Assembly: GCA_021851785.1 (NCBI GenBank)
Contig: JAJZBV010000013.1
Span: 1 to 64,000, forward strand
Direction of reading: 5' to 3'
DNA length: 64,000 nucleotides
Source: Pseudomonadota bacterium
GTDB taxonomy: Bacteria; Pseudomonadota; Alphaproteobacteria; Acetobacterales; Acetobacteraceae
This document shows positions 9,237-17,109 of the stretch, piece by piece (position 1 is the first letter of the stretch; every line of letters starts with the position of its first letter). The translations under genes and the position numbers were made by a program. Under the pieces are notes generated by a model. The model had not been told where the DNA came from. It worked only from the letters and a program-made list of their open reading frames with translations, and ran no database searches.

Positions 9237-9482
9237 ATGAAGGCGATCGTCACGGTGATGCTGAAGGAGGGCGTGCTCGACCCGCAGGGCAAGGCGATCG
9301 CCCAGGCGTTGCACGGCTTGGGCTTCGCCGCGGTCGGCGAGGTGCGGGCGGGCAAGGTGATCGAGATCGAGGTCGATGAGACCGATCCCGAAAAGGCGCG
9401 TGCCCTGGCGTCCGAGATGGCGCGCAAATTGCTCGCCAATCTGGTGATTGAACGGTTTTCGGTGCGGATGGAGGCGGTTTGA
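9237..9482 (+). CDS. purS: phosphoribosylformylglycinamidine synthase subunit PurS
   Basis: PurS (81 residues) bridges the glutaminase PurQ and synthetase PurL in three-subunit FGAM synthases. The opening MKAIVTVMLKEGVLDPQGKA and the later EVRAGKVIEIEV are typical. ATG 9237 is preferred to the adjoining GTG 9234 because AAGGAGG is 6 bases upstream of it. Its TGA shares one base with the ATG of the following Rap1a/Tai-like gene. purQ, which normally follows directly, is displaced by that insertion. Confidence 0.95.
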   Translation: MKAIVTVMLKEGVLDPQGKAIAQALHGLGFAAVGEVRAGKVIEIEVDETDPEKARALASEMARKLLANLVIERFSVRMEAV

Positions 9483-9820
9483 TGCGATGTCTGCTGATTC
9501 TCGCGGTGCTGCTCGGCGGCGTGATGCTGCTGGCGGCGAGGCCCGCCCAGGCCGGCTTCATCAAGCGCGATTTTCTCCTCAATTCATGCGCCTCCTCGGA
9601 TGAGCAGCGTCTCGCCGACTGCACCGGCTATCTGATCGGCGTCACCGATACCACCCAGAGCGAGGCCGGCAGCACCGTCTGCGTGCCGGCCGGGATCGCG
9701 ATCCGCAATCTCCGCGACGCGGTCGTCTATTACCTTCGTGCCCACGCCAAGGGGCCGGATGGCGATGCGGCGCCCATGGTGCGCGCGGCGCTGCGGGCGC
9801 TCTATCCCTGCAAAAAGTGA
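9482..9820 (+). CDS. Rap1a/Tai-domain secreted protein
   Basis: A 112-residue protein with a signal peptide (hydrophobic residues 4-20, cleavage near AQAG) and a mature part matching the Rap1a/Tai fold: paired cysteines in NSCASS and LADCTGY, a GYLIGVTD motif, a VCVPAG motif and a closing LYPCKK. Rap1a-type proteins are immunity proteins against type VI amidase effectors, but many members have no linked effector, as here. It begins on the last base of purS (TGATG) with GGAGG 7 bases upstream, and ends 18 bases before purQ, so it is embedded in the purine operon. Its role there is unknown. Confidence 0.75.
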   Translation: MRCLLILAVLLGGVMLLAARPAQAGFIKRDFLLNSCASSDEQRLADCTGYLIGVTDTTQSEAGSTVCVPAGIAIRNLRDAVVYYLRAHAKGPDGDAAPMVRAALRALYPCKK

Positions 9821-9844
9821 AATCTGGCCCTGCAAAAAATGAAA
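9806..9844 (+). repeat. 17-base direct duplication spanning the purQ start
   Basis: Bases 9806-9822 and 9828-9844 match at 16 of 17 positions (both begin CCCTGCAAAAA). The first copy is the end of the Rap1a-like gene including its stop; the second supplies the purQ ATG. It looks like a short local duplication. Confidence 0.8.
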
Positions 9845-10531
9845 GCCGGCATCGTCCTCTTTCCCGGCATCAACCGCGAGCGTGACATGGCGATCGCGCT
9901 CCGGCGCGCGAGCGGGCGGGTTGCGCGCATGATCTGGCATCAGGAGACCGATCTCGCCGGGCTCGATCTCGTGGTGCTGCCGGGCGGGTTCAGCTATGGC
10001 GATTATCTCCGCTGCGGCGCCATGGCGGCGCATTCGCCGATCATGCGCGCGGTGCGGGCGTTCGCGGCGGCCGGCGGCCATGTGCTTGGTGTGTGCAACG
10101 GGTTTCAGATCCTGATCGAGGCCGGAATGCTGCCCGGAGCACTCCTGCGCAATGCCGGTTTGCGCTTCCTCGCCCGCGATTGCCATCTGCGGGTCGAGCG
10201 CGCCGATACCGCGTTCACCCGCCTCTACCAGAAAGGCGTGGTGTTCCGCGCGCCGATGGCGCATGGCGACGGCAATTACTTCGCCGATGCGGAAACCCTC
10301 GATCGGCTGGAGGGCGAGGGGCTGGTCGCCTTCCGCTACGCGACACCGGCGGGCGAATTGACGCCGGAGGCCAATCCCAACGGCAGCGCGCGCGCGATCG
10401 CCGGCATTTTCTCGCCCAATCTCCGCATTCTCGGCTTGATGCCGCATCCCGAGGATCTGGTCGATCCGCTGCTCGGCGGCGAGGACGGAATGCCGCTGTT
10501 TGCCGGGCTGGCGGGGGCGTTCGCGGCATGA
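9839..10531 (+). CDS. purQ: phosphoribosylformylglycinamidine synthase subunit PurQ (glutaminase)
   Basis: PurQ (230 residues) is the class I glutamine amidotransferase subunit of FGAM synthase and hands ammonia to PurL. The nucleophile Cys86 lies in VLGVCNGFQ, the oxyanion-loop [11 protein letters not shown] at 48-58, and the catalytic His in LMPHPED near the C-terminus. No good ribosome site precedes the ATG, which sits in a short duplication of the previous gene's 3' end. Its stop overlaps the ATG of the ATPase gene by 4 bases. Confidence 0.96.
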
Positions 10532-11781
10532 GCCAGGGACGGCGGCCGGATCGAAATGAAAGAGAACCGATCTCGGTGCCGCGGATCGAATCCCTCAAGG
10601 TGCGGAATTATCGCGCCCTGAAATCGATAGAGATCAGAGACCTCACGCCGATGACCGTGCTGCTCGGCCCCAACGGCAGCGGCAAATCGACGATTTTCGA
10701 CGTATTCAATTTTCTTTCGGAGTGCTTTCTCTACGGGCTGCGCCATGCCTGGGACCGGCGCGGGCGGGCCAAGGAACTGAAAACCAGGGACGGAGTCGGG
10801 CCGGTGGTGATCGAATTGAAATACCGGGAACGCCCCAATACGCCCCTCATCACTTATCACCTCGCGATCGATGAGGAACGGAGCGGTCCCGTAGTTAAAG
10901 AGGAGTCTTTAAAGTGGAAACGCCAGTCATACGGACACCCGTTTAGCTTTCTTGATTATAAAGAAGGTCATGGGAGAGTCATAAGAGGAGAAGAACCCGA
11001 TGAACAGGCGACCCGCATCGAGGTTTCTCTGCGTGCGCCCGATCTGATCGCCGTCAATACGCTCGGCCAGCTTGCCGAACATCCCCGCGTCGCGGCGCTC
11101 CGCGATTTCATCACCGACTGGTATGTTTCCTATCTTTCCATCGACGATGCGCGGGGGCAGCCGGAAGCGGGACCGCAAGAGCGGCTGAGCAAAACCGGGG
11201 GCAATCTGCCGAACGTCATCCAGTATCTGGGCGAACGCCATCCCGATCGGCTGAATGAAATTTTCCGCGTTCTCGCCGAGCGGGTGCCGCGTCTGGAAAA
11301 AGTCCTGGCCGAGGCGATGCCGGATGGAAGGTTGCTCCTACAGATCAAAGACGCGCCGTTCGACCGGCCGGTGCTGTCGCGCTTCGCCTCCGACGGCACG
11401 CTCAAAATGCTTGCCTATCTGGTTTTGCTCTACGATCCCGAGCCGCCGCGCTTCATCGGCATCGAGGAGCCGGAGAATTTTCTCCATCCGCGCCTGCTCC
11501 GGCCGCTGGCGGAGGAGTGCCGGCGGGCGAGCGAGCATTCCCAATTGCTCATCACCACCCATTCGCCGTTTTTTCTCGATGCCATGAAGCCAAAGGAAGT
11601 CCGCGTTCTCTATCGCGATGAGCAAGGCTATACCCAGGTCAAACGCGCGTCCGATATCGATGGGATCAACCATTTCATGGAAACGGGCGCCAGTCTCGGC
11701 CAGCTCTGGAGCGAGGGACATTTTGGGCTCGGTGATCCGCTGGTCCGTGCCGGGGCGCCGGAGAGCCGCCGGAAATCCTGA
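10528..11781 (+). CDS. AAA/OLD-type ATPase of a two-gene module with DUF4276
   Basis: About 417 residues. The ATG at 10528 overlaps the purQ stop (ATGA). Walker A GPNGSGKS is at residues 47-54, Walker B ends in EE at 313-314 within [14 protein letters not shown], and THSPFF at 344-349 supplies the switch histidine. This is the SMC/ABC-like ATPase core (AAA_15/AAA_21) seen in OLD proteins, Septu and PARIS-type defence systems. A less GC-rich patch at about 10880-11000 in the insert region suggests foreign origin. The gene ends on the first base of the DUF4276 ATG. Partnership with that TOPRIM-like protein suggests an ATP-dependent sensor with a nuclease effector (inference). Confidence 0.85.
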
Positions 11782-12401
11782 TGACGCCCGAGTCTGTCAA
11801 CGCCGAACACCTTGAAATCCTGGTCGAAGAGCCGTCAATGGAGGCTGCTCTGAGAGCATTCCTGCCCAAAATGATCGGCGCCAAGAGTTTCAAAATCACG
11901 AATTACATCGATAAGCCGACATTTCTTAAAAGATTGCCGGACCGTTTGCGAGGATATAAAAAATCTTTACAAAAATCCCATGTCATTCTCATTCTCATCG
12001 ACAGAGATAATGATGATTGCGGACAATTAAAAGCACGCATCGAAACCATGGCCCAACAAGCCAATTTGCGGATTCGCGACGATCATCGCGGCTCGGCCCA
12101 AATCATCGTCCGCATCGCCATCGAGGAGCTGGAAGCCTGGTATTTCGGGGATTGGCAGGCGGTGCAGGCGGCCTATCCGCGGGCCAGAAAGCCGGACAAG
12201 TATTGCCGCGCGCCGGATGCGATCAAAAGGGGAACCTGGGAAGCCTTCGAGGGGGTCATGAAAAAATCCGGCTATTTCGTCTCGGGCCTCAGAAAGATCG
12301 AGGCGGCGACGAGGATCGCGCCCCATATCGCTCCCGCCCGCAACACGTCCCCGAGCTTTCAGGCTTTTCGGCGGGCGCTTGAAAGGGTCAATCGCCCATG
12401 A
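11781..12401 (+). CDS. DUF4276 protein, TOPRIM-like nuclease candidate
   Basis: A 206-residue protein recognised as DUF4276 by its order of acidic motifs: Glu16-Glu17 in ILVEEPS, an Asp-rich strand end with Asp74, Asp76 and Asp78-79 in LIDRDNDD, and EELEAW at 115-120. An N-terminal Glu followed by a D-x-D is the layout of TOPRIM metal sites, so DNA or RNA cleavage is plausible but not shown. Its ATG shares a base with the ATPase stop, and its TGA overlaps the purL ATG by 4 bases. The first half is visibly less GC-rich than purL. ATPase-DUF4276 pairs recur as mobile accessory modules; here the pair sits inside purine synthesis. Confidence 0.82.
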
Positions 12402-14620
12402 CCGAAATCTCCGAATCCCTCGCCCGCTCCTTCGGCCTGAGCGCCGAGGAATATGGCCGGGTGTTGGCCATTCTCGGGCGCACACCAAGTCTCACCGAGC
12501 TGGGCATTTTCTCGGTCATGTGGTCCGAGCATTGTTCCTATAAATCCTCGCGCGTGTGGCTCCGCGAATTGCCGACCGCGGCGCCGTGGGTGATCCATGG
12601 GCCGGGGGAGAATGCCGGGGTGGTCGCGATCGGGGATGGTTTGGCGGCGGTTTTCAAGATGGAGAGCCACAACCACCCGAGCTTCATCGAGCCCTATCAG
12701 GGGGCGGCGACCGGGGTCGGCGGCATTTTGCGCGACGTCTTCACCATGGGCGCGCGCCCGATCGCCAATCTGAATGCGCTCCGCTTCGGCGATCCGGCGC
12801 ATCCGGCGACCAGGCGCATCGTCGATGGCGTGGTGCGCGGCATCGGCGGCTATGGCAATTGCGTCGGCGTGCCCACGGTCGGCGGCGAGGTCGATTTTCA
12901 TCGCTCCTATAACGGCAATCCGCTGGTCAATGCGATGACCGTCGGCATCGCGCCGGCGGATCGGATTTTCCTCAGCGCCGCCGCCGGCATCGGCAACCCC
13001 GTCGTTTACGTCGGCGCCAAAACCGGGCGCGACGGCATCCATGGCGCAACCATGGCGAGCGCGGAATTCGCCGAGGATGCCGAGGAAAAGCGCCCGACGG
13101 TGCAGGTCGGTGATCCGTTCACCGAAAAATTGCTGATCGAGGCCTGCCTCGAATTGATGGCGACCGACGCCATCATCGCCATCCAGGATATGGGCGCGGC
13201 CGGGCTCACCAGTTCCTCGGTCGAGATGGCGGGGAAGGGCGGGGTTGGCATCGCGCTCGATCTCGACCGCGTGCCCCAGCGCGAGACCGGCATGAGCGCC
13301 TATGAGATGATGCTCTCGGAAAGCCAGGAGCGCATGCTGATCGTGCTGCGGCCCGGGCGCGAGGCGATGGCGGCGGCGATTTTCCGCAAATGGGAGTTGG
13401 ATTTCGCGATCATCGGCGAGATCACCGACAGCGGCCGCATCGTCGTGCGCCATGGCGGGCGGGTGGAGGCGGATATCCCGCTCGCCCCGCTCGCCGATCA
13501 GGCGCCGCTCTATCGCCGCCCGATCGCGGAGACGAAGCCGCCGCCGGTGCTCGATCCCGTCGCCATCGCCGATCCGGCCGGCATCGCGCCCGCGCTGCTC
13601 CGCCTCATCGCCTGCCCCGATCTTTGCTCGCGCGCCTGGATCACCGACCAGTATGACGCGACGCTCGGCGGGCAGACGATCAAACGCCCGGGAGCGGCGG
13701 ATGCCGCCGTGGTGCGGATCGAGGGGCATGATCTGGCGCTGGCGCTCACCACCGACTGCACCCCGCGCTATTGCGCCGCCGACCCTTACGCCGGTGGGGC
13801 GCAGGCGGTCGCCGAGGCGTGGCGCAACCTCACCGCGACCGGCGCCCGGCCGCTCGCCCTCACCGATAATCTCAATTTCGGCAACCCCGAGAAACCCGAG
13901 ATCATGGGCCAGTTCGCCGCCGCCATCAGGGGCATGGCGGAGGCCTGCCGGGCGCTCGATTTCCCGGTGGTGAGCGGCAATGTCAGCCTCTATAACGAGA
14001 CCGAGGGCAGCGCGATCCTGCCGACGCCGGCGATCGGCGGGCTGGGTGTGTTCGATCATGCGGCGGATGCGGTCGGGATCGCGCTCGCGCCGGGGCTCGA
14101 TCTGGTGCTGATCGGGGCGAGTTCGGGCTGGCTCGGCCAGAGTTTGTGGCTCCGCGAGATCTGTGGCCGCGAGGACGGCGCGCCGCCGCCGGTCGATCTC
14201 GCCGCCGAACGCCGGGCGGGGGATTTCGTGCGTGGGGAAATCCTCGCCGGGCGCGTCAAAGCCTGCCACGATGTCGCCGATGGGGGGCTTCTGGTCGCGC
14301 TCGCCGAGATGGCGCTGGCGGGCGAGACCGGTGCTGTGCTCGACCCGACGCCGCCCGACCTGCCGGCGCATGCGTTCTGGTTCGGCGAGGAGCAGGCGCG
14401 CTATGTGCTGGCGGTCGCCGATGGCGCCGCCCTGCTCGTCGCCGCCGAGACGGCAGGCGTGCCGGCGCGGTTTCTCGGCAAAACCGGAGGGGGCAAAACC
14501 GGCGGGGGCAAAACCGGCGGGCGGGATTTGACACTGCCGGGTGCGGTCGCCATATCGCTGGCAGAGCTGCGGGCGGCGTATGAGCGGTTTTTCACCGAAT
14601 TCATGGCCGCTTCGCGCTAA
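12398..14620 (+). CDS. purL: phosphoribosylformylglycinamidine synthase subunit PurL
   Basis: PurL (740 residues, the small type that needs PurS and PurQ) makes FGAM from FGAR, ATP and ammonia. Visible signatures include [12 protein letters not shown] near residue 47, KMESHNHPS near 88, the [11 protein letters not shown] motif near 265 and FGNPEKPE in the second AIRS-like half. The ATG overlaps the DUF4276 stop by 4 bases. Near residues 694-708 a 15-base triplication gives three GKTGG-like units. Expression is probably coupled to purQ through the intervening pair. Confidence 0.97.
14477..14521 (+). repeat. three 15-base tandem repeats in the purL 3' region
   Basis: GGCAAAACCGGNGGG is repeated three times in frame, encoding Gly-Lys-Thr-Gly-Gly units just before the last PurL strand region. 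The number of units is likely to vary between strains. Confidence 0.88.
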
Positions 14621-15309: not shown

Positions 15310-16185
15310 TTGCTCGGCCTCGCGGTCGGGGATGCGCTCGGCGCGCCGCGCGAAGGCTGCGCGCGCGATGTCGAACCACCGCTTGCCGGCATGATCGGCG
15401 GCGGGCCGTTCGCGCTCCCGCCCGGGGCGTGGACGGATGACACCGCGCTCGCCCTCTGCCTCGCCGATTCGCTGCTCACCGACCCGGCGCTCGACTCCGC
15501 TGATCTCCTGACCCGGTTTCGGCGCTGGTGGGAGAGGGGCGAAAACAGCGCGACCGGGGTTGGCCTCGGCATCGGGCGGACGACATTTGCCGCGCTCGAG
15601 CGGTTTCGCGCAACCGGCGCCCTGATCGCCGAGGACAGCCCGGCGCCGGCGAGCAATGGCGGGATCATGCGGCTCGCCCCGGTCGCCATCCGCTTTCATG
15701 CCGCGCCCGAAAGGGCGGCGGCGATCGCGCGGGCGCAAAGCCGGACCACCCATGCGGCGACGGCGGCGGTCGATGCCGCCGATCTCCTGGCCCGGATCCT
15801 GGTCGCGGCGATCGCTGGCGCGGGCAAGGCGGCGCTCTCCGCGCATGGCGCGAGCCTTGCTGATCCGGCGATCGCGGCTTTGGCGGCGGGAGGCTGGCGC
15901 GGCAAAGGGCGGGATGAGATCATCGCCGATGGCAGCGCCCGGGCAACCCTGGAAGCGGCGCTCTGGTGTGTCGGGATGGCCGGGGATTTTCCCGAGGCGG
16001 TACTGCTTGCCGCCAATCTCGGCGGCGATGCCGATACCGCCGCCGCGATCGCCGGCCAAATCGCCGGCGCCATCTGGGGCGCGGCTGCCATTCCACAAAC
16101 CTGGCTGGAAAACCTCGCCAAGGTCGCGCATATCACGGAGCGGGCGCTGCGGCTCTATGAGGCTGCCGGCGCGCCAGTGTTTTGA
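15310..16185 (+). CDS. ADP-ribosylglycohydrolase family protein, copy 1
   Basis: An ARH/DraG-fold hydrolase of about 291 residues from TTG 15310. Metal-binding motifs WTDDT and NLGGDADT and the RTTHAA segment are present; family members remove ADP-ribose from proteins or nucleic acids. About half of its residues match the next gene by eye. Copy 2 begins with ATG-Asp-Pro-Arg-Arg; in copy 1 the aligned bases are TCC-GAC-CCG, so the expected ATG is missing, although the frame is open upstream. TTG 15310 would cut off the first helix. A non-standard start nearer the grxD stop (ACG 15262 or CTG 15259) would restore it. Confidence 0.85.
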   Translation: MLGLAVGDALGAPREGCARDVEPPLAGMIGGGPFALPPGAWTDDTALALCLADSLLTDPALDSADLLTRFRRWWERGENSATGVGLGIGRTTFAALERFRATGALIAEDSPAPASNGGIMRLAPVAIRFHAAPERAAAIARAQSRTTHAATAAVDAADLLARILVAAIAGAGKAALSAHGASLADPAIAALAAGGWRGKGRDEIIADGSARATLEAALWCVGMAGDFPEAVLLAANLGGDADTAAAIAGQIAGAIWGAAAIPQTWLENLAKVAHITERALRLYEAAGAPVF

Positions 16186-16209
16186 TGATGCGACTGGAGG
16201 AGAGGATAA

Positions 16210-17109
16210 ATGGATCCGCGCCGCGATCGAGCCATTGGCAGCCTGCTCGGGCTTGCGGCCGGCGATGCGCTTGGCGTGCCGCTGGAATTCCAGAAACGCG
16301 ATTCCCGCCCCGCCGTCACCGATCTCATCGGCGGCGGCCCGTTCGGCCTGAAGCCCGGCGAGTGGACGGACGACACCGCGATGGCGCTCTGTCTCGCCGA
16401 ATCGCTCCTCGTCCAGTCCGATCTCGATCCGCGCGACCTGATGGAACGTTTCGTGCGCTGGTGGAAAAAGGGCGAGAACAGCGCGACCGGCACCTGTTTC
16501 GACATCGGCAACGCGACCCGCGCGGCGCTCGAGCGCTTCCGCAAGAACGGCGACCCGATGGCCGGCTCGGAAGACCCGATGGACGCCGGCAATGGCAGCA
16601 TCATGCGCTTGGCGCCGGTTGCCATCCGCTGGCATGGCTCGCCCGATCGCGCGGCAAGCATCGCGCGGAGCCAGAGCCGGACCACTCACGCCGCGCCGGC
16701 TTGCCTCGACGCCTGCGAATTGCTCGCCCGCGTGCTGGTGGCGGCGATCGGTGGCGCCGGCAAGGCGGCGCTGTTGCAGCCGGCGCGGCCGGGCTGGCTC
16801 GCCGATATCACCCAGATCGCCGCCGGGCGCTGGCGCGACAAGCAGCGGGCGCAAATCCGCTCATCCGGCTATGTCGTCGATACGCTGGAGGCGGCGTTCT
16901 GGTGTGTGGCGCGCTCGGAGGATGCGCGCGCGGCGCTCATCCTCGCCGCCAATCTCGGCCAGGACGCCGATACCGTCGCGGCCGTCACCGGACAGATCGC
17001 CGGTGCCATCTGGGGAGCGTCGGCGTTGCCGCTGGCGTGGCGGGAGAAGCTGGTCGGCGCCGATCGCATCGTCCGGCTCGCCGAGCAGCTTTTCGACGCC
17101 GTAAAGTAG
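16210..17109 (+). CDS. ADP-ribosylglycohydrolase family protein, copy 2
   Basis: A 299-residue ARH/DraG-fold protein, tandem paralogue of the preceding gene. EWTDDTAMALCL near residues 57-68 and NLGQDADT near 252-259 supply the two-metal site, and GENSATGTCFDIG is typical of the family. GGAGGAG lies 7 bases before the ATG. It is the last gene of the purine run; A/T-rich DNA with a palindromic element follows. DraG, a relative, reverses nitrogenase ADP-ribosylation, but no nitrogenase genes are present here, so the substrate is unknown. Confidence 0.92.
   Translation: MDPRRDRAIGSLLGLAAGDALGVPLEFQKRDSRPAVTDLIGGGPFGLKPGEWTDDTAMALCLAESLLVQSDLDPRDLMERFVRWWKKGENSATGTCFDIGNATRAALERFRKNGDPMAGSEDPMDAGNGSIMRLAPVAIRWHGSPDRAASIARSQSRTTHAAPACLDACELLARVLVAAIGGAGKAALLQPARPGWLADITQIAAGRWRDKQRAQIRSSGYVVDTLEAAFWCVARSEDARAALILAANLGQDADTVAAVTGQIAGAIWGASALPLAWREKLVGADRIVRLAEQLFDAVK

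Follow-up and report, generated by a model that had tools for sequence, protein, structure and literature searches.

A HEC-01-Type ATPase Gene and a Predicted TOPRIM Nuclease Gene at the Variable purQ–purL Junction of an Acetobacteraceae Genome

Between the purine biosynthesis genes purQ and purL of Pseudomonadota bacterium (Acetobacteraceae; assembly GCA_021851785.1, contig JAJZBV010000013.1) lie two genes encoding an ATPase and a DUF4276 protein. All coordinates refer to the 64,000-nucleotide (nt) stretch that was analyzed, positions 1–64,000 of this contig, which we call the window. Family genomes are given as G-numbers and individual homologous or junction loci as L-numbers; G000 is the window's own genome and G001–G005 are its congeners, the genus being represented by six genomes. 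The locus is laid out as follows:

9839–10531, forward strand: purQ, glutaminase subunit of formylglycinamidine ribonucleotide (FGAM) synthase, the upstream flank (Pfam GATase_5, E = 4.4e-42)
10528–10531, forward strand: ATGA joint of the purQ stop and the ATPase start; the same joint occurs in G002
10528–11781, forward strand: HEC-01A-type ATPase, 417 amino acids (aa), with an OLD/SMC/Rad50-like head (PADLOC, Pfam)
11779–11783, forward strand: TGATG joint of the ATPase and DUF4276 genes; found in G002 too
11781–12401, forward strand: HEC-01B-type DUF4276 protein, 206 aa, with a predicted OLD-type TOPRIM nuclease fold (Pfam, PADLOC, structural model)
12398–12401, forward strand: ATGA joint of the DUF4276 gene and purL; not present in G002
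12398–14620, forward strand: purL, FGAM synthase, the downstream flank (Pfam AIRS, AIRS_C and FGAR-AT_linker)

An earlier note on this DNA, made from the sequence without database searches, had placed the two open reading frames (ORFs) between purQ and purL with three overlapping joints, and an ORF check returned exactly these coordinates; purQ has a single match in the window's genome. The insert is less GC-rich than its flanks, as the note had also proposed: the GC content at third codon positions (GC3) is 0.70 for the ATPase and 0.64 for the DUF4276 gene, versus 0.82 for purQ and 0.84 for purL, so that the composition of the pair leans foreign.

The ATPase matches Pfam AAA_21 (E = 6.2e-31) and AAA_15, and the PADLOC model HEC-01A (PDLC04182, E = 2.9e-163). 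In an alignment of 46 sequences, the window's own among them, the motifs by which it had been recognized as an OLD/SMC-type ATPase (Walker A, Walker B with EE, and THSP) vary little or not at all:

10576–10578, forward strand: in-frame GTG, an alternative ATPase start with AAAGAGA ahead of it; the 27 nt ending in GTG are identical in G002
10666–10692, forward strand: Walker A, residues 47–55; residues 47, 49, 50 and 52–55 conserved in 46/46 sequences
11389–11400, forward strand: SDGT, an ABC signature-like motif, residues 288–291; 46/46
11452–11478, forward strand: Walker B with EE, residues 309–317; E314, P315, E316 and N317 in 46/46, E313 in 45/46
11554–11568, forward strand: H-loop TTHSP, residues 343–347; residues 343, 345, 346 and 347 in 46/46

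Because the GTG at 10576 is a possible start, the overlap of purQ and the ATPase gene is sure as an ORF but unsure as an initiation codon. The predicted structure of the ATPase has a predicted local distance difference test (pLDDT) score of 86, and SMC and Rad50 heads and the retron/Septu protein PtuA are among the fold matches listed for it (Z = 19.5–21.8); the best sequence match in the PDB is PtuA (8ee4, E = 9.5e-15).

The DUF4276 protein matches Pfam DUF4276 (E = 1.1e-27), the sole Pfam family listed at E ≤ 0.001, and the PADLOC model HEC-01B (PDLC04202, E = 1.9e-70). A PDB search with its sequence profile gave no match below E = 0.07. Its structure was predicted from a 70-sequence alignment (pLDDT 90.6), and the best fold matches of this model are the C-terminal TOPRIM regions of class 2 OLD nucleases: the BpOLD C-terminal region (6nk8) at Z = 10.2, with a root mean square deviation of 4.0 over 170 residues, and three Xcc OLD entries at Z = 9.2–9.7. 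A Pyrococcus protein of unknown function (2p62) falls in the same range (Z = 9.4), the remaining matches follow from 8.7 down, and in Foldseek just two OLD entries pass E = 0.001, with TM scores of about 0.48. In BpOLD, residues E400, E404, D455, D457, T506 and E508 are reported to serve two metals, and K562 to be the catalytic lysine (PMC6755086). The putative counterparts in the window are the following:

11826–11828, forward strand: E16, probable Toprim Glu (BpOLD E400); 70/70 sequences
12000–12008, forward strand: D74-x-D76, probable DxD (BpOLD D455/D457); each 70/70
12123–12134, forward strand: E115-E116-L117-E118, third acidic cluster, with E118 probably BpOLD E508; E115, E116 and E118 in 70/70
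12294–12296, forward strand: K172, candidate catalytic Lys (BpOLD K562); 68/70

This pairing of residues follows from the aligned ranges and from spacing, with E404 and T506 left without a sure counterpart; E21, conserved in 65/70, is a possible equivalent of E404, offset by one residue. K172 sits 54 residues past E118, just as K562 sits 54 residues past E508, the metal-B Glu. Given the predicted fold and the conservation of Glu, DxD, metal-B Glu and Lys, an OLD-type TOPRIM domain is probable, in keeping with the TOPRIM-like acidic residues that had been noticed in the sequence.

The pair is therefore best read, on these models, as a split OLD-type ATPase/TOPRIM nuclease. A search of both proteins against defense-system models, which the earlier note had recommended, calls HEC-01, a two-gene candidate defense system, and HEC-01A and HEC-01B outscore all other PADLOC systems by far; the HEC-01A-matching ATPase gene is followed by an adjacent, overlapping HEC-01B-matching gene. 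As judged from family models, the window carries a real, intact HEC-01 module, an ordinary protein family at an unusual address. The name stands for Hma-embedded candidate 01 (as given in PMC12988326, citing the preprint of Payne et al. 2024, 10.1101/2024.01.29.577857); the window's pair resembles this system in that both genes are best matches, adjacent and overlapping, but it is embedded in a purine biosynthesis operon and not in a defense locus. PMC12839542 reports TOPRIM-linked OLD-ABC pairs inside BREX and BR (Hma) systems. The likeness here is that an OLD-ABC ATPase and a TOPRIM nuclease, encoded separately, form an embedded accessory module, and some close homologues of the window's pair stand beside pglZ, pglX and brxL, whereas its own direct flanks are purQ and purL.

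The earlier comparison with OLD and PARIS holds in kind, as a pairing of an ATPase with a TOPRIM-like protein, but not by family. PARIS likewise has its ATPase and TOPRIM nuclease as separate genes, and the AriA model matches the window's ATPase at 1.4e-30; HEC-01A, however, scores far above AriA, and the partner is DUF4276, whereas AriB of PARIS is a DUF4435 protein. AriB is not among the 50 fold matches listed for the DUF4276 model, which excludes nothing. GajA of Gabija and the class 2 OLD proteins offer the closest solved TOPRIM fold (BpOLD and XccOLD, Z = 9.2–10.2), with matching probable ligands and Lys, but in a single polypeptide, whereas the window has two ORFs with purQ and purL as immediate neighbors and no helicase gene alongside. 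Septu and retron PtuA share a similar head fold (Z of about 20–22) besides being the best PDB sequence match of the ATPase; the Septu partner PtuB, however, is an HNH nuclease, and the window's DUF4276 partner has the predicted OLD-type Toprim fold. Two models of MADS, an eight-gene system, were compared: mad3 matches the ATPase at 1.7e-23 and mad4 the DUF4276 protein at only 0.019. Within the collection of papers searched, none was returned that ties DUF4276 to defense, purQ–purL to anti-phage genes, or a defense hotspot to core operons of Acetobacteraceae.

The pair appears to travel as a unit. The DUF4276 gene occurs in 14 of 299 family genomes (E 1e-5), and the ATPase stands beside it in 14 of the 15 family loci, the exception (L030) beginning at a contig edge. 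In a wider set of 80 genome_contigs loci, kept from 579 confirmed, tblastn finds the ATPase at 79, and the remaining locus (L153) is cut by a contig start. The two genes overlap by 1 or 4 bases in 46 of 75 called pairs and otherwise in 6, while 21 pairs are spaced by 0–30 bases and 2 by more; 5 pairs were uncalled. A tree of 71 pairs requires 26 changes of phylum label (the minimum possible is 13), fewer than with shuffled labels, which fits transfer between phyla plus some inheritance and is no proof of either. The neighborhoods of close homologues, which the note had suggested listing, hold defense company of the BREX and type I restriction-modification (RM) kinds, and core genes too: BLAST clusters of neighboring proteins include one of PglZ type (7 members) and one of HsdR type (10 members), and scanned cluster representatives (one each) match models of PglZ, PglX, BrxL, type I restriction and type I specificity.

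We rejected the idea that HEC-01 seeks operons in general: a same-strand upstream neighbor lies within 100 bp at 31/66 loci versus 184/550 background gene pairs, an excess that is modest at most, and a downstream one at 27/73; genes at these loci were called with an in-house caller that shortened some of them, purQ included. At 6/68 loci (L092, L097, L130, L155, L156 and L158), versus 0/203 mismatched pairings, the flanks, taken to at most 3 kb on each side, share direct repeats, several of them distant or short, and a target-site duplication as the insertion signature of the pair is not established. The clear case is L130 from Latescibacteria, where a HEC-01 pair (L130:4137-9793) is framed by two copies of nrdB, one partial and one full, that share 437 bp at 99.5% around the gene's start, apparently a recent insertion that duplicated the 5' end of its target gene; a second, different HEC-01-type ATPase/DUF4276 pair lies upstream.

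Within the genus, G002 has the pair at the same place and shares the first two joints, but its DUF4276 gene and purL are 164 bp apart, with a dispersed repeat inside. This palindromic repeat of about 140 bp (L025:3909-4067 in G002) also lies upstream of purL in G001 (L026) and G003 (L027) and is matched 42 or more times in each of five genomes of the genus and 21 or more times in the sixth, at most 40 candidates per genome having been scored. It stands upstream of purL in these three relatives and not in the window, and its loss probably created the overlap of DUF4276 and purL seen there. In G001, purQ and purL are kept, and neither the ATPase nor the DUF4276 gene was found between them. The bases that follow purQ align with the end of the DUF4276 gene as it stands in G002 (0 of 20,000 shuffles were as good), reading RRAMTRV-stop in the DUF4276 frame where G002 has CRAMERI-stop. 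Since DUF4276 proteins elsewhere end at about the same point, we read this as an apparent deletion scar and the pair as lost; the alternative is that the end of the G002 gene was borrowed from the host. The leader of purL in G003 shows weak similarity to the same gene end (126 of 20,000 shuffles were as good), and a 12-kb segment of ordinary-looking genes (ilv and miaA, named by eye) lies between purQ and purL there, more likely a rearrangement than cargo.

The two intact copies of the pair, both with conserved motifs, have diverged unevenly. Nucleotide identity between G000 and G002 is 0.95 for purQ, 0.86 for the ATPase, 0.71 for DUF4276 and 0.92 for purL, and along the genes it falls to 0.52–0.62 in the first half of DUF4276, 0.71–0.74 in three ATPase windows and 0.74–0.83 at the end of purL. 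Synonymous divergence (dS, NG86) is 0.16, 0.47, 0.88 and 0.25 in the same order of genes, and the ratio of nonsynonymous to synonymous divergence (dN/dS) is 0.16 for the ATPase and 0.27 for DUF4276 (0.13 and 0.25 by YN00). Uneven identity together with low dN/dS suggests that parts of the pair were exchanged or diverge fast while purifying selection was maintained. The earlier note had named a presence at the same place in all relatives, with codon use like that of purL, as an outcome that would speak against it; the pair is instead accessory, and its third codon positions differ from those of purL.

The spacing of purQ and purL, a further comparison that the note had called for, was surveyed in 140 family genomes that are at least 90% complete, with purQ found in 135 and purL in 137. 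The two genes are collinear in 123 genomes and on different contigs or strands in 11 more. In 89 of the 123, no more than 60 bp separate the matches, that is, the genes are adjacent; the gap is 61–200 bp in 11, 201–700 bp in 5, and more than 700 bp in 18, which belong to 11 genera. An excess over the median of more than 700 bp occurs at purQ–purL in 16/116 genomes (some rows were left out, and related species are not independent), compared with 1/127 at purS–purQ and 0/127 at purL–grxD; in one further genome purS and purQ are 1.7 Mb apart. Insertion is enriched at purQ–purL over these two other junctions of the operon, and a variable junction is the new finding here.

Defense-type matches occur in 5 of the 18 expanded junctions, a count with no background rate: the window's own HEC-01, an AriAB-like ATPase–DUF4435 fusion (E = 2.1e-54) in G106, in G162 an ATPase whose nearest models are PDC-M29A and AriA, its partner being weakly PDC-M29B-like, ParA-like and SIR2 proteins in G108, and putAbiC in G010. 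Four others (G016, G165, G111 and G008) hold low-GC3 orphans without a confident match, and nine hold neither; an enrichment of defense content among the inserts is not shown. The genus of G106 is collinear in 14 of 15 genomes, with gaps of 2.8–17.6 kb, and G304 is split. To this, its 11 further loci add inserts amid many GC-rich ordinary genes: G300 contributes an IrrE/RmrA-like and DUF4411 pair, G306 a DUF4238 protein, and G303, G266 and G237 contribute orphans. The orphan of G237 (L194:366-2477, 703 aa, GC3 0.38) has a P-loop-like GAVGKST, matches nothing in Pfam or PADLOC within the limits applied, and is a candidate for a defense gene of unknown kind. A DUF4096-like ORF of about 200 aa (putative IS4/5 transposase; Pfam E = 1.4e-9, 38.5 bits versus a cut-off of 34.3) was seen at L182:8868-9470 and at 19 other purQ–purL loci. 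In several genera it is found close to purL, with identities mostly of 53–80% (35% in one) and sometimes beside low-GC inserts; it may be a piece of a transposase that became domesticated and is linked to the variable junction.

Consensus scans gave no excess over shuffles for promoter-like (2 found, 1.2 expected) or terminator-like signals (3 found, 5.6 expected), so that a promoter and terminator isolating the pair, which the note had listed as a counter-argument, are not apparent, and the pair is probably read from the purine operon transcript. Of the three joints behind the proposal of translational coupling from purQ through to purL, the first two recur in G002, but the purL overlap does not. 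We rejected coupling through to purL as a conserved arrangement, given the 164 bp and the repeat before purL in that genome.

We consider it likely that the pair is a horizontally acquired HEC-01-type immune module, in which an OLD-type ATPase and TOPRIM nuclease are split, at a purQ–purL junction that accepts inserts in several genera. The HEC-01A/B matches agree with the core of the earlier note, a defense-type ATPase and TOPRIM-like module between purQ and purL; the pair is accessory (14/299 genomes), leans foreign in GC3 and separates normally adjacent genes. The note's ideas that it would guard purine metabolism, or be expressed in step with nucleotide synthesis, are conjectural. The analysis shows which genes are there, their homology and predicted fold, how far the probable active site is conserved, where the pair is present or absent, its composition, and the variability of the junction. 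What we infer for the pair, namely its transfer, expression, trigger, substrate and anti-phage effect, can be put as follows. The two-gene module would have been acquired horizontally and landed at the purQ–purL junction, where it would be read from the purine operon transcript, with translation of the nuclease coupled to that of the ATPase. On the model of OLD, PARIS and Septu/retron PtuA, the ATPase would bind ATP, dimerize, and hold or license the nuclease, and a phage-derived trigger would let the nuclease cut nucleic acid with two metal ions, so that infection is limited or aborted. Among related nucleases, AriB of PARIS is reported to cut tRNA (PMC12409363), and GajA to be a nickase strictly inhibited by nucleotides (PMC8136825).

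Several observations weigh against this interpretation. HEC-01 is itself a candidate defense system. Homologues also stand beside core genes (nrdB, gyrB, mutS, recN, uvrD, hslU, nth and trpA), beside a dUTPase gene (dut), a leuS-type tRNA synthetase, two transporter permeases, IclR and an aminotransferase, and, below curated cut-offs, beside inositol-monophosphatase-like and dGTPase-like genes; these core-type neighbors come from 16 scanned of 139 immediate neighbors, picked by eye, and give no rate. The DUF4276 protein is rare on plasmids (10/72,556 records) and phages (1/50,697), so that neither collection points to a vehicle for the module. Half of the expanded junctions (G003, G041, G125, G129, G040, G163, G155, G128 and G049) lack a defense-type or orphan candidate, their genes being named by eye, with a DUF4096-like ORF seen in G128 and G049. 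Finally, the sample of the genus is small (six genomes), and the contigs of G004 and G005 are broken at purQ–purL.

We think it unlikely that the pair is kept in the purine operon as a GajA-like, nucleotide-sensing nuclease, inhibited by nucleoside and deoxynucleoside triphosphates, which fires when a phage drains the pools and is tuned by coexpression. The strict inhibition of GajA by nucleotides (as reported in PMC8136825), the class 2 OLD Toprim regions as the best match of the DUF4276 model, and homologues adjoining nrdB, dut and a dGTPase-like gene are all consistent with it; however, nucleotide-type neighbors are few among very varied ones, G001 keeps purQ and purL without the pair, and the purL overlap is not conserved. 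A wider version, to which we give a similarly low probability, would make purQ–purL a defense hotspot in a core operon, have HEC-01 exploit others (such as those of nrdB, gyrB, mutS, recN and dut), and let a class 2 OLD-like, nucleotide-sensing nuclease expressed from the purine operon tie immunity to the nucleotide pool. A domesticated housekeeping role, for instance in nucleotide supply, DNA repair or the cell cycle, with no part in phage defense, is also improbable. It would account for the purifying selection, the same place in two species and the homologues beside core genes, and one OLD-family ATPase from an archaeon reportedly has a role in cell-cycle progression and, as it appears, none in antiviral defense (PMC12796447); yet the DUF4276 gene is present in just 14/299 family genomes, the pair was apparently lost in a congener, its divergence is fast and uneven, and BREX and RM neighbors occur at many homologous loci. 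That purQ–purL merely tolerates insertions, with the pair a transient passenger without current function, is suggested by the varied inserts, many of them not defense genes, and by the apparent loss in the genus, but is quite unlikely with both genes intact in two species, motifs conserved and dN/dS at 0.13–0.27.

Three further features of the window lie close to the pair. A small Rap1a-immunity-like protein is encoded between purS and purQ (9479–9820; Pfam E = 4.6e-18), with relatives in G001, G002, G003 and G005; four other loci have ORFs of weak similarity to it. purL carries an in-frame short tandem repeat near its C-terminus (14478–14530). A tandem pair of similar ORFs of 291 and 299 aa follows at 15310–17109; we take them to resemble ADP-ribosylglycohydrolase-type proteins.

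Searches for defense genes usually turn to islands, prophages and other mobile elements, and the interest of this pair lies in its address in the purine operon and in the variability of the junction. A module in a core operon, at a junction with differing inserts, suggests that essential operons can serve immune modules as landing sites with no mobility genes nearby. Should this hold, new defense genes could be found simply by looking for expansions between core genes that are normally neighbors; the low-GC orphans without a confident family match in G016, G165, G111, G008, G303, G266 and G237 are candidates. A TOPRIM fold of the OLD type for DUF4276, with its probable two-metal site, would make HEC-01 directly testable by point mutants.

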